From a bacterium (GTDB lineage: Bacteria; RBG-13-66-14), in contig DATKYS010000049.1 in assembly GCA_035528375.1 (NCBI GenBank), positions 1 to 12,664 on the forward strand: a stretch of 12,664 nucleotides of DNA. Reading direction: 5' to 3'. Positions 1,874 through 8,034 of the stretch are shown here, piece by piece (positions within the stretch are counted from its first letter, which is position 1; the number at the start of each line of letters is the position of its first letter). The notes under the pieces were generated by a model. The model had not been told where the DNA came from, made no database searches, and saw nothing but the letters and a program-made list of their open reading frames with translations. The translations under genes were made by a program, and so were the position numbers.

Positions 1874-2926
1874 ATGCGCCGCCAGACACCCGTTCTCGTC
1901 GTCGCCCTGGTGCTCCTGACCGCCCTGGCCGCCGGCGGGGGCCAACTGGACCCCGACCGCGTCTACACCGTCCAGCGCGGCGACACCCTCTGGGACCTGG
2001 CCGAGGAGTTCCTGGGCAGCCCCTGGCTCTGGCCACTCATCTGGCAGGCCAACCCCGCCATCGTGGAGCACCCGCACTGGATTTACCCCGGCGAGGAAAT
2101 CTACATCCCGCCCAACGTCCCCCCCGAGCTCCCCACGCGCATCCAGGTCCGCATCCGCGACGACGAGCCCATCGTGGCCTTGACGCGGGAGCAGCTCGTC
2201 GCCCTCTGGCGGCGGCTTCTCGAGTACGGCGGCATGGTGGTGCCCGACATTGACGAGTACTGGGAGCTGGCCCACATCGTGGCCTCCGCCGACGAAGACC
2301 GAACCATGATCGCGCTCTACGACGAGGTGTACATCTCCGGCGGCGACGACGAGGGCTTCTACCCCGGCGCCCAGTTCCTCGTCTACCGCGACAAGGGCCT
2401 CGTCGTCGTCCCCGACTCCCGCATAGACGTGGGCCGCCTCATCCAGAACGTGGGCGTCATCGAGGTCACCGACGTCTTCCCCGAAGTCAGCCGCGCCAAG
2501 ATAATCGCCTGCAACGAGGCCGTCTTCGTCGGCGACAAGATTCGTTTCCGCGAGGATATTGACTCGGAGTTCCTCCGCTTCCGCACGGGGGTCGAGCCGC
2601 CGGTGTGGGAATCCGAGGAGGAGGCGCTCGCCGAGCGCGGGTACGTCTGCTGGGAGCGCGACGGCCGCAGCTACGCCGCCCAGGGCCACGTGGTCTACAT
2701 CAACTGGGGGACCGACCAGGGCCTCGAGCCCGGCTCCAGGGTCATCGTCTGGCGCTCCGGGCGCACCGTGGACGACCCGGTCGGTCTCGAGGCGGTCAGG
2801 CTCCCCGACGAAAAGATAGGTACGCTGGGGGTGTTGAAGGTCACCGATTCCACGGCCACCTGCCTGGTCCTGGGCAACACCACCCGCATCGAAATCGGCG
2901 ACTACGTGGACTACGTGCGGAGATAA
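1874..2926 (+). CDS. Secreted LysM domain protein
   Basis: This is a 350-residue exported protein. Residues 1-23 are a Sec-type signal peptide (MRR, then a hydrophobic run, then Ala/Gly). A LysM domain occupies about 30-79. It has the usual YTVQRGDTLWDLA start and the IYPGEEIYIPP end, with a longer aromatic middle (GSPWLWPLIWQANP) typical of a bacterial LysM subgroup. LysM binds GlcNAc-containing glycans, so this is probably peptidoglycan-associated. Residues 80-350 are acidic and probably beta-rich, with no enzyme motif that I recognise. The start at 1874 is chosen because GGGAG (1864-1868) lies 5 bases upstream and the signal peptide begins there; an upstream in-frame TTG at 1817 falls inside the -35 element. 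The stop at 2926 is followed directly by AT-rich foreign DNA. Confidence 0.85.
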   Translation: MRRQTPVLVVALVLLTALAAGGGQLDPDRVYTVQRGDTLWDLAEEFLGSPWLWPLIWQANPAIVEHPHWIYPGEEIYIPPNVPPELPTRIQVRIRDDEPIVALTREQLVALWRRLLEYGGMVVPDIDEYWELAHIVASADEDRTMIALYDEVYISGGDDEGFYPGAQFLVYRDKGLVVVPDSRIDVGRLIQNVGVIEVTDVFPEVSRAKIIACNEAVFVGDKIRFREDIDSEFLRFRTGVEPPVWESEEEALAERGYVCWERDGRSYAAQGHVVYINWGTDQGLEPGSRVIVWRSGRTVDDPVGLEAVRLPDEKIGTLGVLKVTDSTATCLVLGNTTRIEIGDYVDYVRR

Positions 2927-2931
2927 AACTT

Positions 2932-2942
2932 GACTTATAGTC
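2932..2942. promoter_or_regulatory. C-box operator for the C-protein-type regulator
   Basis: GACTTATAGTC is an exact GACTnnnAGTC palindrome, the known recognition core of controller (C) proteins of type II restriction-modification systems. From memory, it equals the strong left operator of the Esp1396I system including the preceding T (TGACTTATAGTC). A degenerate second half-site may begin at 2947 (GGACATGTTAGG), at the same centre-to-centre phase as in known tandem C-boxes. The palindrome is centred about 43 bases upstream of the start codon at 2980, a typical activator position if the mRNA is leaderless. Confidence 0.75.
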
Positions 2943-2944
2943 TA

Positions 2945-2973
2945 TGGACATGTTAGGGTAATCGAGTAACAAT
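2945..2973 (+). promoter_or_regulatory. Probable leaderless promoter of the restriction-modification operon
   Basis: TGGACA (2945-2950, one mismatch to TTGACA) and AACAAT (2968-2973, two mismatches to TATAAT) are separated by 17 bases. Transcription would begin at or next to the ATG at 2980. No Shine-Dalgarno sequence precedes that ATG (AACAATTCCCCT), which fits a leaderless transcript as known for several C-protein genes. An alternative promoter would be TTGACT (2930-2935) with TAGGGT (2954-2959). That one has an 18-base spacer, but its -35 overlaps the C-box. Confidence 0.5.
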
Positions 2974-2979
2974 TCCCCT

Positions 2980-3732
2980 ATGGGGAAGTTATTAACAATA
3001 CTCGGCTCAAACATCAGGCGTTTAAGAAAACGTCTCAATCTAACCCAAGAAGAACTAGCGTCCAGAGTTCGAAGGCACCCAACTTACATAAGCGGTATCG
3101 AAAGGGGAGTCAGAAACATAACCATTAATGTACTAGAAGACATCTCAACTGCTTTAGAAGTTGAACCAACCGAAATAATTCAAATAGAAATAAGCCAATT
3201 AGAGAAAAACCTAAACTGCTCGAAAAATGACATAATAAAAGCGGTCGAAGCCGGCTTCAGAGCACAGGTTGATGTAAAGGGCAAACTGGCTGAGTTATTT
3301 CTGTCGCGATGTTTGACCGACTTGGAACATGAGGGGGTAATTGAGGGCTATAAATGGCATGACGAAGATAAACTTCCCGATTTCTCAATTAAATACAGAG
3401 GGAGAGACTACACGTTAGAATGTAAGAATGTACGTAGCGGTGAGAAAATGATAGTAAAGGACGGTTATCGCATAGAGGTAGAAAAAACGAGAAATTCAAA
3501 AGATGGTTCAAACACGAGATCATACGGCATAGACGAATTCGACCTACTAGCCGCTTGTACGTTTAATCAGACAAATGAATGGACCTATTTGTATGCAGCC
3601 ACATTTAAGCTGAAAAGGAAAAAAGGCGAAGAAACGCTGTTAAAAATTATGCAGCCCGTTCCCTTTAAACCCGGCCCAACTTGGCGTTCATCGCTAGAAG
3701 AAGCGATACGAGATATACCCGATGAAGCTTGA
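2980..3732 (+). CDS. Fused controller protein and type II restriction endonuclease (C-R fusion)
   Basis: This 250-residue protein joins two modules. Residues 1-70 are an XRE-family helix-turn-helix of the controller-protein kind: [10 protein letters not shown] (21-30), then [17 protein letters not shown] (33-49), closely matching C-protein recognition helices ([12 protein letters not shown]). Residues 71-95 look like a helical linker. The rest is a nuclease domain with a PD-ExK signature: Pro133-Asp134, then Glu147-Cys-Lys149 on the next strand, and Glu105 as a possible helix glutamate. The cognate C-box lies just upstream, so autoregulation of a restriction enzyme is the likely design. The gene overlaps the methyltransferase gene by 11 bases. 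Composition is strongly AT-rich against its neighbours, indicating horizontal transfer. The target sequence cannot be read from the protein, and the nuclease half is not one I can place in a named subfamily. Confidence 0.85.
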
Positions 3733-4690
3733 AAATAATAACAACCTCAACCCATTTTATAAGACCTCGCTAGGTTCTGCCTACCTGGGTGACACCTTCT
3801 CTTTAATAAAACAAACACCGGACGAGAGTATTGACCTCATATTTACATCACCACCATACGCGCTCCATTTTAAAAAGGAGTATGGAAATGAAAACCAGGA
3901 CGAATACGTCGAATGGTTTATATCGTTGGGAGAGGATTTAAAAAGGGTATTAAAGCCAACAGGCAGTTTTGTGCTGAACATCGGGGGCAGTTGGGAGCCG
4001 GGAAGACCGACCAGGTCTTTGTGCCATTTCGAAGTATTAATTAAGCTTGTAAAAGATATAGGTTTCTATTTAGCTCAGGAGTTTTACTGGTACAACCCCG
4101 CCAAGTTGCCCGTTCCTGCTGAGTGGGTAACAGTCCGCAAATTGAGGGTAAAAGACTCTGTCGAATGTTTGTGGTGGCTTTCAAAGACACCTGAGCCCAA
4201 AGCAAGTAACGAAAAGGTGCTTCGTGAGTACAGCGAGGACATGAAACGTCTTATTAAAAGGGGGTATAGAACAAAAAGACGTCCGTCGGGTCATAATATT
4301 ACACACAAGTTCCAAAATGATAGAGGAGGTTCTATACCCGACAACATCTTAATATTCGGTAATAACGACAGCACGGGGTACTATTTGAAAAGGTGCAAGG
4401 AATCCGGGCTGAAGGTTCACCCCGCACGTTTTCCGATTCAACTACCTACGTTTTTCATTAAATTTCTGACTGAGCCGGGAGATATTGTGTTTGACCCTTT
4501 CGCCGGCAGTAATACGACTGGTGAAGCCGCTGAGAGGTTGGGCAGGAAGTGGTTATCCTTTGAAAGAGAAGAAGAATATTTAATTGCCAGTTCTTTCCGT
4601 TTTGAAGGATTATCAAACATTGTTACTGAGGTAGAATCTATTGAAAATAATATATATACACCCAATCAGTTAGACATTAATCTCAAGTAA
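3722..4690 (+). CDS. Type II N4-cytosine DNA methyltransferase, PvuII-like
   Basis: This is the modification enzyme of the island, 322 residues. Motif order is the beta class: catalytic motif IV TSPPY (42-46) comes first and the AdoMet-binding motif [12 protein letters not shown] (257-267) comes near the C-terminus. TSPPY is characteristic of amino-methyltransferases, usually N4-cytosine. Long stretches recall M.PvuII as I remember it: [47 protein letters not shown] and the SNTTG region. The predicted product is therefore m4C, perhaps at a PvuII-related site, but specificity is unproven. It protects the host from the endonuclease encoded upstream. The start ATG overlaps the end of that gene by 11 bases, so translation may be coupled. 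It is AT-rich like its partner. Confidence 0.88.
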
Positions 4691-4718
4691 GTTTCCCTAC
4701 AAGTAAAAGTAACTTCAA

Positions 4719-4739
4719 GCGGCCCGGGGCCGCGTTTTT
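4719..4739 (+). terminator. Rho-independent terminator-like hairpin downstream of the restriction-modification genes
   Basis: A GCGGCC stem (4719-4724), CGG loop and GGCCGC stem (4728-4733) are followed by G and TTTTT (4735-4739). Its high GC content matches the host chromosome rather than the AT-rich island, so it may originally have terminated the LysM gene before the island was inserted. The T-run is only 13 bases from the next start codon. Confidence 0.6.
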
Positions 4740-4752
4740 AGCTGGAAATACG

Positions 4753-6150
4753 ATGATGACGACGCGTAGGGGCATCCTCGCGTTACTCGAAGACCGGCGG
4801 GCGGCGTGGGTCATACTCCTCCTGGCGGTCGTGCTGCGCCTCGGCATCCTCTTCCTCGTCGCCGACGAGCCCCTGGTCTCGGACGCCGCGGGCTACTTCA
4901 AAGAAGCCCGGTACCTCGCCGAGGGTACGAGCTACACCCCCCGGTGGCCCCCGGGCCTGCCCATCTACCTGTCCGTTTTCCAGCACCTGAATTCCGGCGA
5001 GTTCCTCGCCCGGGCCTCGATGCTTCTGTGGTTCCTGGCGCTGGCCCTGTTGGGGTACCGGCTCGTTTTAGACGCGTCCCAAGAGGCGAAGTGGACCCCG
5101 GAGGGCGCGGCCTCGGCCCGCTTCGGCGCCAACCTCCTCCTCCTCGCCTTCGCCCTCTACCCGTGTTACGTCCTCAACTCGGTGGACACGCTCACCCAGC
5201 TCCCGGCGGCGGTGGGGGTGACCGCGGCGGCCCTGCTGACGCTGCGTGTCGCCCGCGGGGCGGGGGTCGGGACGGCGGTGGTGCTGGGGTGCGTGCTGGG
5301 GGCGACGGTGCTCATCCGGCCCACGAGCCTCGTCCTCCTCGCGGGGGTGCCGGTCTACCTGGCGGTGAAGTTGAAGAAGCCGCTGCCGCCCCTGGCGGTC
5401 TTTTTGCCGGCGGCCGGCGTCGTCGGTCTCTGGCTCCTGGTCGCGCAACACATGACCGGCCACTTCGTCTTCATCAACGAGGCCAACACCTGGAACCTCT
5501 TTTTGGGGAACAACCCGTACACGCCGCTTTACAGGACGTGGTGGCTGGGGTCGCACTCGGGCGTCGAATCCGGGTGGCCCGCCGGCTTCAGACGCCTGGT
5601 GACCGAGATAAACGCGCTGCCGGCGCACCTGCGGAGCGGACGGTACGCGGCGGTGGCCTGGGTGGAGATAGCCGGACGACCGGATCTCTTCCTCGTGCGC
5701 AGCCTGAGCCGCGTGCGGACATACCTCGCCACCGACAGCTTCACCGGCTCGTACCTCGTGAAAATCTTCGGCCTGCCGCTGTGGGTGGGGCTGGCGGCCA
5801 TCGCGGCCGACGGCGCGTTCTACGTGGGCATCGCCGGGGCGGTCGTCGCGGCGCTCTTCGCGGGGGGTAGGGTGCTTCCCGAAAGGGACGCCCTGACGGT
5901 GCTCCTGGGAATCTCATTGCTCTACGCGCTGCCCTACTTCGTCAGCTTCTCCCACCCCGTGTACCACATCCCCACCACGCCGCTGTTGGCGGTCGTGGCG
6001 GCGGTGTTCGTCGGCCGTCTCCGGCGGGGGGGCGACGTGTGGGAAAAGCTGAAAAAATCCAAAAAAAGGCGGATCGGACTGTGGGTCGTCGCCGCCATTT
6101 TTGTGGCGATACAGATAGAGTGGCTCGTCGTCATGGCCGGCGTGATGTGA
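4753..6150 (+). CDS. Polytopic membrane glycosyltransferase of the GT-C type (GT39/ArnT-like)
   Basis: This is a 465-residue integral membrane protein. The first hydrophobic helix (about 18-36) is followed by an acidic loop, PLVSDAAGYFKEARYLAEG (about 40-58). It carries the Asp expected of GT-C enzymes in their first extracytoplasmic loop, then RWPPGLPIY (64-72), a common motif in GT39/PMT-type families. Roughly ten further hydrophobic segments follow, interrupted by a large soluble loop at about 230-320, and the last helix lies near 440-463. Such enzymes transfer sugars from polyprenyl-phosphate donors onto lipids, glycans or proteins outside the cytoplasm. Acceptor and donor cannot be told from sequence. 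ATG codons at 4753 and 4756 are both possible and neither has a strong Shine-Dalgarno sequence. Ten bases separate it from the next gene. Confidence 0.8.
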   Translation: MMTTRRGILALLEDRRAAWVILLLAVVLRLGILFLVADEPLVSDAAGYFKEARYLAEGTSYTPRWPPGLPIYLSVFQHLNSGEFLARASMLLWFLALALLGYRLVLDASQEAKWTPEGAASARFGANLLLLAFALYPCYVLNSVDTLTQLPAAVGVTAAALLTLRVARGAGVGTAVVLGCVLGATVLIRPTSLVLLAGVPVYLAVKLKKPLPPLAVFLPAAGVVGLWLLVAQHMTGHFVFINEANTWNLFLGNNPYTPLYRTWWLGSHSGVESGWPAGFRRLVTEINALPAHLRSGRYAAVAWVEIAGRPDLFLVRSLSRVRTYLATDSFTGSYLVKIFGLPLWVGLAAIAADGAFYVGIAGAVVAALFAGGRVLPERDALTVLLGISLLYALPYFVSFSHPVYHIPTTPLLAVVAAVFVGRLRRGGDVWEKLKKSKKRRIGLWVVAAIFVAIQIEWLVVMAGVM

Positions 6151-7119: not shown

Positions 7120-8034
7120 ATGGCCATTCCGGATTTCCAGTCGTTGTTCGTTCCTGTCTTGCACTCTTTGGAGGATGGGGGAGACCATTCCGTGAGAGAG
7201 ACTATCGAATACGTTGAAAAGAAGTTCCATCTTACTGAAAAAGACATGAGCGCCACTTTGAAGGGAGGCGCACAAACGGTAGTCTACAATCGTGTTACGT
7301 GGACCATCAGTTACCTGAGGCACGCGCTGCTTCTCGAAAATGTCAAGCGTGGCGTGTTTCATATAACCGATCGTGGACGCAAAGTGTTGGCGGATAATCC
7401 GGCAAGGCTGAGCATCAAAGATCTAATGCAGTTTCCCGAGTTTGCCGCATGGCTGGCGAGTACGAAGGTCGGGAAACGATCCGCGGCAGCGGAATCATCC
7501 CTGGTTGACGACACACAAACGCCCGAGGAGCTGATCGAGGAGAACTTCAACGTCCTGGAGCGGCAACTGGCAGACGAGCTGCTGAACCAGGTCAAGTCAA
7601 ACTCACCGGGTTTCTTCGAGCGGCTGGTAGTCGAGCTTTTAGTGAAAATGGGCTACGGCGGTTCCTTCGAGGACGCGGGGAGGGCCATCGGACGCTCGGG
7701 GGACGAGGGGATAGATGGGGTTATCAATGAAGATCGTCTTGGACTCGATGTTATCTACATCCAGGCGAAGCGGTGGGAAAGAAGCGTCGGTCGGCCGGAG
7801 ATACAGTCATTCGTGGGGGCTCTGGCCGGGCAGAAGGCGCACAAAGGCGTTTTCATCACAACCTCCGATTTCAGCGAAAGCGCCCGAAGGTACGCCAAAT
7901 CACTTGAAAATAAAGTCGTCCTGATAGACGGGAGCCAGCTGGCTCATTTCATGATAGAACACGATATAGGCGTCTCGACGGTGAACACCTACAGGATAAA
8001 AAAGATAGATTCCGATTACTTTGAAATCAGTTAA
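7120..8034 (+). CDS. mrr: Mrr-type modification-dependent restriction endonuclease (type IV)
   Basis: The product has 304 residues, the same length as Escherichia coli Mrr as I remember it. Residues 1-95 form the winged-helix Mrr N-terminal DNA-binding domain (IPDFQSLFVPVLHSLEDG at 3-20, HITDRGRKVL at 81-90). Residues about 163-285 form the Mrr catalytic PD-(D/E)xK domain: FFERLVVELLVKMGYG (165-180), GDEGIDG (194-200) with Asp199, and YIQAKRW (213-219) with the variant Gln215-x-Lys217. Enzymes of this family cut DNA carrying foreign methylation and act in defence. It is the only gene in a segment bounded by two exact copies of the next gene's start. Composition is less GC-rich than the surrounding genes, consistent with transfer. 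Confidence 0.92.
   Translation: MAIPDFQSLFVPVLHSLEDGGDHSVRETIEYVEKKFHLTEKDMSATLKGGAQTVVYNRVTWTISYLRHALLLENVKRGVFHITDRGRKVLADNPARLSIKDLMQFPEFAAWLASTKVGKRSAAAESSLVDDTQTPEELIEENFNVLERQLADELLNQVKSNSPGFFERLVVELLVKMGYGGSFEDAGRAIGRSGDEGIDGVINEDRLGLDVIYIQAKRWERSVGRPEIQSFVGALAGQKAHKGVFITTSDFSESARRYAKSLENKVVLIDGSQLAHFMIEHDIGVSTVNTYRIKKIDSDYFEIS

Follow-up and report, generated by a model that had tools for sequence, protein, structure and literature searches.

Natural fusions of a controller (C) protein to a restriction endonuclease (REase or R) have been known since 2013 from five PvuII-orthologous restriction-modification (R-M) systems (Liang and Blumenthal, PMC3850674). The preliminary description of the DNA studied here called such fusions known and rare. 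One of the five, CR.NsoJS138I, is an intact fusion which cuts like PvuII and activates its own promoter 23-fold, and a competition between C and R dimerisation within one chain has been proposed for it (PMC3850674). In excerpts of a review from 2025 and a paper from 2015, C-REase fusions are mentioned only via one cited work. In studied C systems, the operon of C includes R and excludes the methylase (M) gene (PMC5282649). HsdC of Mycoplasma gallisepticum resembles the system described here in being a C-like protein that heads and acts on an operon containing M genes, but it is a separate C protein of a Type I system, has an unrelated operator and is apparently a repressor only (PMC5282649).

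Our subject is a C-R fusion gene in a 12,664-nucleotide stretch of bacterial DNA (contig DATKYS010000049.1), which we call the window. The host is a Candidatus Coatesbacteria, and its nearest relative is Ca. Coatesbacteria RBG_13_66_14, which belongs to the same genus and has a protein 84% identical. Like CR.NsoJS138I and the four other published fusions, the window fusion belongs to a PvuII-type system, carries C at the N-terminus of a Type II REase and has a C-box upstream. However, the published nucleases are R.PvuII orthologues (50–69% identity) and their M genes are divergent or oppositely oriented, whereas the window nuclease has no sequence relation to R.PvuII and the window M and fusion genes overlap within one operon. 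R.PvuII orthology of the REase half, which all five published fusions have although a C-REase fusion need not have it by definition, is thus absent in the window. The PvuII R-M system itself (pPvu1, NC_002632) shares with the window an M that is 52% identical, a C-type regulator and a C-box type operator, but its C and R are separate, its M is divergent and its R is unrelated in sequence.

Judged by sequence, the window fusion differs from the published C-R fusions in its nuclease family, in having M in the operon and in an operator conserved in distant relatives. C-R fusion therefore does not appear peculiar to PvuII orthologues, as here a C domain is joined to an unrelated nuclease. We consider it probable that the locus is a mobile Type II R-M operon headed by an autoregulatory C-R fusion, with a single promoter and M downstream; within this best explanation, operator binding, activation and repression, cleavage and specificity are predictions.

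The fusion gene and its operon

The features of the locus, all on the forward (+) strand and in window coordinates, are:

2932–2942, +, left C-box operator O_L, GACTTATAGTC; exact match, genome-unique, conserved position
2945–2973, +, operon promoter from a promoter scan; −35 TGGACA (2945–2950), 17 nt, −10 AACAAT (2968–2973)
2947–2957, +, probable right operator O_R, GACATGTTAGG, degenerate; from sequence and analogy to PvuII-type C boxes
2980–3732, +, complete C-R fusion gene; from the ORF and dN/dS against the related locus L001
2980–3195, +, C-protein (controller) domain, residues 1–72; from PDB, PADLOC and Pfam HTH_3 matches
3196–3729, +, REase domain, residues 73–250, PD-(D/E)XK type, PDDEXK_5/I-Ssp6803I-like; from a 14-member alignment and profiles
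3292–3294, +, codon of E105, the glutamate of helix 'GKLAE'; invariant (14/14)
3379–3381, +, codon of catalytic D134; invariant (14/14)
3418–3426, +, codons of E147 (3418–3420), C148 and K149 (3424–3426), the E/QxK motif; K149 14/14
3722–4690, +, M gene, N4-cytosine methyltransferase of M.PvuII type; from a 1boo match and PF01555
4719–4740, +, intrinsic terminator after M, the operon end; GCGGCCCGGGGCCGC then T5

That a restriction enzyme is fused to its own C regulator, as the preliminary description claimed, is borne out by a single ORF (ATG to TGA, 250 aa in the ORF list) and by the identities of both domains. The C and REase domains share one uninterrupted polypeptide in the window and in three other loci (L001, L114 and L115). 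Codons 55–110 of the window fusion contain no in-frame ATG, GTG or TTG, so ordinary internal initiation cannot yield free R. Between the window and L001, dS is far lower in the C half (0.36, positions 2980–3195) than in the R half (1.06, positions 3196–3726), which perhaps reflects RNA or regulatory constraint, or noise only.

The M gene product matches M.PvuII (1boo) with E=3e-108 over residues 9–320, i.e., with full-length similarity, and its translation contains the motifs TSPPY and DPFAGS; its specificity is probably CAGCTG or a close relative. M and the fusion gene run in the same direction and overlap by 11 nt in the window and L001 and by 4 nt in L114 and L115. A terminator element similar to that of the window follows M in L001. 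The operon region (2930–4700) is AT-rich, with about 41–45% GC, while the flanks on both sides have 67–70%. Among loci of the R family with a readable neighbourhood, R adjoins an M.PvuII-like methylase in most, and M.PvuII-type methylases occur next to nucleases of at least three kinds, namely R.PvuII, an HNH enzyme (Thiothrix and Roseivivax plasmids) and the window R family.

Operator, promoter and the order of expression

The preliminary description placed an exact C-protein operator 38 bases before the start codon, and we find O_L there, its end separated from the ATG by 37 nt. GACTTATAGTC occurs once in the 2.63-Mb genome, a single match that is near chance by itself, and the expectation for GACTNNNAGTC is 0.13 per shuffled window. 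The significance of O_L therefore comes from position and conservation, not genome uniqueness: each of the five C-bearing loci in the R family has ACTTATnnTC 37–38 nt ahead of its start codon, and within 300 nt upstream of C-less R-family genes (some with approximate starts) the motif is found at 0/14. The distances to the start codon are 37 nt in L001 (GACTTATAGTC), L114 (GACTTATCGTC) and L106 (TACTTATAGTC), and 38 nt in L115 (GACTTATAATC). A second sequence, with its dyad centre 15 bp from O_L, is the probable right operator by analogy; GAC at this offset is kept in the window, L001, L114 and L115 and is weaker in L106. The term 'perfect C-box' thus suits the left operator, which is exact, but not the degenerate right one.

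The scan, which used the sigma-70 consensus only, gives the promoter at 2945–2973 nine of 12 matches and makes it the sole forward-strand candidate upstream of M. Its −35 box is overlapped by O_R. An O_L upstream of the −35 box and an O_R over it are the usual geometry of C-regulated promoters, and by analogy the window has this layout, with C-protein binding predicted. In such promoters, O_L activates and O_R represses (PMC12707154). A promoter at this position would start transcription near A2980, the A of the ATG, so the operon mRNA would be leaderless, as is the C-dependent pvuIIC transcript (PMC2997769).

We propose that the C domain dimerises on O_L and activates this promoter, and that at a higher level it would also fill O_R and repress it. 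The transcript, beginning at or near the ATG, would carry the fusion and the overlapping M gene, and the C-terminal PD-(D/E)XK domain, probably as a dimer, would cut the site methylated by M. As M overlaps the fusion gene on the same strand and, from 2973 to 3722, the scan detects nothing that resembles a forward promoter, the C-box probably drives regulator, nuclease and methylase together.

In studied C systems, M is expressed first, from a separate promoter. With a shared C-box promoter, the textbook timer, in which methylation comes before cutting, does not hold as it stands, and the delay of the endonuclease until methylation is done, which the preliminary description took as the normal role of C proteins, is not supported in that form: M lies downstream, overlapping and on the same strand, in the window and in its fused relatives. 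Since R and M share the promoter, any head start for M is probably not transcriptional. The likeliest source, in which we have moderate confidence by analogy with CR.NsoJS138I, is that M would act as a monomer at once, while R would dimerise only in competition with the C half of the same chain. The full proposal, in which a single C-box promoter serves all three functions and protein assembly sets the order of methylation before cutting, is one we put forward tentatively.

Alternatively, the standard C timer could operate: a promoter of M within the fusion gene would supply M early, and the C loop would delay the fusion alone. Promoters for M inside R are known in the R-then-M operons EcoRI and Eco29kI (PMC3874152), and one that departs from the sigma-70 consensus would fall outside our scan. 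However, the scan result for 2973–3722 is joined by two further points against such a promoter: M overlaps the fusion gene in every fused locus, and the final 200 nt of the fusion gene, in which such a promoter would be expected, are its least conserved part relative to L001 (42–46/60, versus 56/60 for 2911–2970). We therefore regard an internal M promoter as possible but rather unlikely.

How R-M systems establish themselves without killing the host is a long-standing question. The locus makes this question testable in a conserved operon whose C-box probably governs the methylase as well, and where transcription may not by itself put M ahead of R.

Nuclease and controller halves

The R family brings together sequences from a Methanothrix plasmid, from a Dolichospermum phage and from genomes that span several phyla. 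E105, D134, K149, R171, R180 and Y182 are invariant in its 14-member alignment, and the position of E147 holds E in 10 members and Q in four, so that a D...(D/E/Q)xK catalytic core is conserved across the family. The residue numbers given earlier for the nuclease site (Asp134, Glu147 and Lys149) are correct, as the codons listed above confirm; conservation of all three in homologues holds for D134 and K149 but not strictly for E147.

The PDDEXK_5 model (PF11645) is matched by 5/14 members with E up to 0.1, the best at 2.5e-7 and above the curated cut-off. Searched against the PDB, the family profile finds 2ost (E=0.003), which we take to be the PD-(D/E)XK homing endonuclease I-Ssp6803I, with D, QxK, RTR and Y..FD aligned. 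The similarity is one of catalytic-core profiles, and I-Ssp6803I and PF11645 differ from the window fusion in being of a homing endonuclease without C domain or methylase. The window R domain alone has no match in the PDB or NCBIfam and only one chance-level model in Pfam, and the R domains of the window, L106 and L114, each searched alone, have no significant Pfam match. The nuclease identity of the window R, which the preliminary description had read from the C-terminal half itself, is therefore carried by the family alignment and profiles. An AlphaFold model made from the window, L001 and L098 fragment sequences has a pLDDT of 39, too low to confirm the fold. No relation to R.PvuII is detected, with hhalign giving the family profile a probability of 0.2% against it. 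By these profiles, the R domain is no R.PvuII orthologue and appears to be a separate REase branch near PDDEXK_5/I-Ssp6803I, and the window fusion is predicted to cleave DNA.

Could the R half have decayed, leaving an inactive protein that only regulates an effectively solitary methylase? Its divergence exceeds that of M (80% versus 96% identity between two Coatesbacteria), and the Q found in place of E147 in four homologues would fit such a loss. However, D134, E147 and K149 are intact in the window, and QxK occupies the aligned position in the solved homing nuclease 2ost. The R half is also under purifying selection (dN/dS against L001 of 0.10, with 0.13 for the C half and 0.04 for M). We therefore consider decay improbable, and an active nuclease remains our preferred reading.

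For the N-terminal half, residues 5–74 match C.Esp1396I (3e-9), C.AhdI (4e-8) and C.BclI (2e-7) in the PDB, whereas the first well-known non-C regulators appear near 2e-4; the oddly named PDB entry 9xz9 scores 1e-8. The top PADLOC model is Control_protein (5.7e-17), which also ranks first for the N-halves of two other fusions, L114 and L115, and for the free-standing C of L106, and Pfam HTH_3 matches the C domain at 8e-14. C proteins thus outscore the generic XRE regulators that the preliminary description had named as the competing match. These scores point to a C-protein-like HTH domain of ~70–80 aa, for which C-box binding and activation/repression are predicted.

Some nucleases do recognise DNA through HTH domains, but that the N-half is a generic XRE-type domain for target recognition, below an accidental upstream motif, is very improbable, because C proteins score far above generic XRE in both the PDB and PADLOC, the same domain is a free C gene of the same operon in genome G162, the operator co-occurs only with C, and R homologues are also found in R-M pairs without any HTH.

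Relatives and history of the fusion

Fusions of 249–250 aa are present in G000, G002 (L001), G386 (L114) and G388 (L115), with those of L114 and L115 being only 45–46% identical to the window fusion; the fusion is thus real and old. In G162 (L106), the three genes are unfused and arranged C-R-M. A 73-aa C begins with a GTG at 4482, the TGA that ends it overlaps the GTG that starts R at 4700 (GTGA), and M follows about 45 nt after R. This overlapping layout is likely the arrangement of the unfused ancestor. The fusions have only about five residues between the C tail and the R start, so both halves are nearly complete.

The four fusion loci group together in the methylase tree (87/86), and in the nuclease tree the fusions group with L106 and the Methanothrix enzyme (88/90). 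These groupings are compatible with a single fusion event without proving it, and the methylase tree leaves room for more than one; the sample is four loci from few, mostly uncultured, genomes. In Pseudomonadota, 0/398 genomes gave a match, a search that had no positive control, so its empty result shows little. Scans of viral contigs gave one distant relative, L098, whose copy of the nuclease domain (locus positions 4308–5579) has its second half in another frame, probably a broken copy or a sequencing error.

Two candidates were rejected. L004, which first matched over residues 8–180, is not a fusion, as its HTH gene stands apart and the gene after it is unrelated, and L110 is an AAA protein that was a false match to the R family.

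A distant second fusion of a C-like domain to a PD-(D/E)XK domain (271 aa) lies at 1285–2100 of L141 (G1267), which came up when the search was focused on the phylum of L051 (Muricauda). It is convergent with a different, DPPY-motif methylase and has no obvious C-box upstream. This second type suggests that C-nuclease fusion arose more than once.

The nuclease domain also occurs in other settings. In L119 (1489–2736, −) and L125 (1495–2637, −), it is fused C-terminally to MTaX1 (methylase-associated X1, PF20296; tested in these two loci) and has no C domain, and similar ORFs are present in L118, L120, L124 and L126. The same R/M pair, divergent and without C, is found in the Dolichospermum phage Dfl-JY14 (L090, 3582–5582) and on the plasmid of the archaeon Methanothrix harundinacea (L089, 6–1831), with both R genes annotated as hypothetical.

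In genomes G001 (L145) and G003 (L152), from sibling species, a different R-M system is found within a few bases of the same LysM/FlgT-like gene. There, another methylase (TSPPYNIGKEYE) precedes a probable nuclease gene, and the C-R/M operon is absent from this position. Because different R-M systems follow the same LysM gene, window 2926–4753 looks like a place where R-M cassettes are exchanged. A gene for an Mrr-type restriction enzyme, probably methyl-directed (Type IV), is found at 7120–8034 of the window, 2.4 kb downstream, where the GC content drops a second time.
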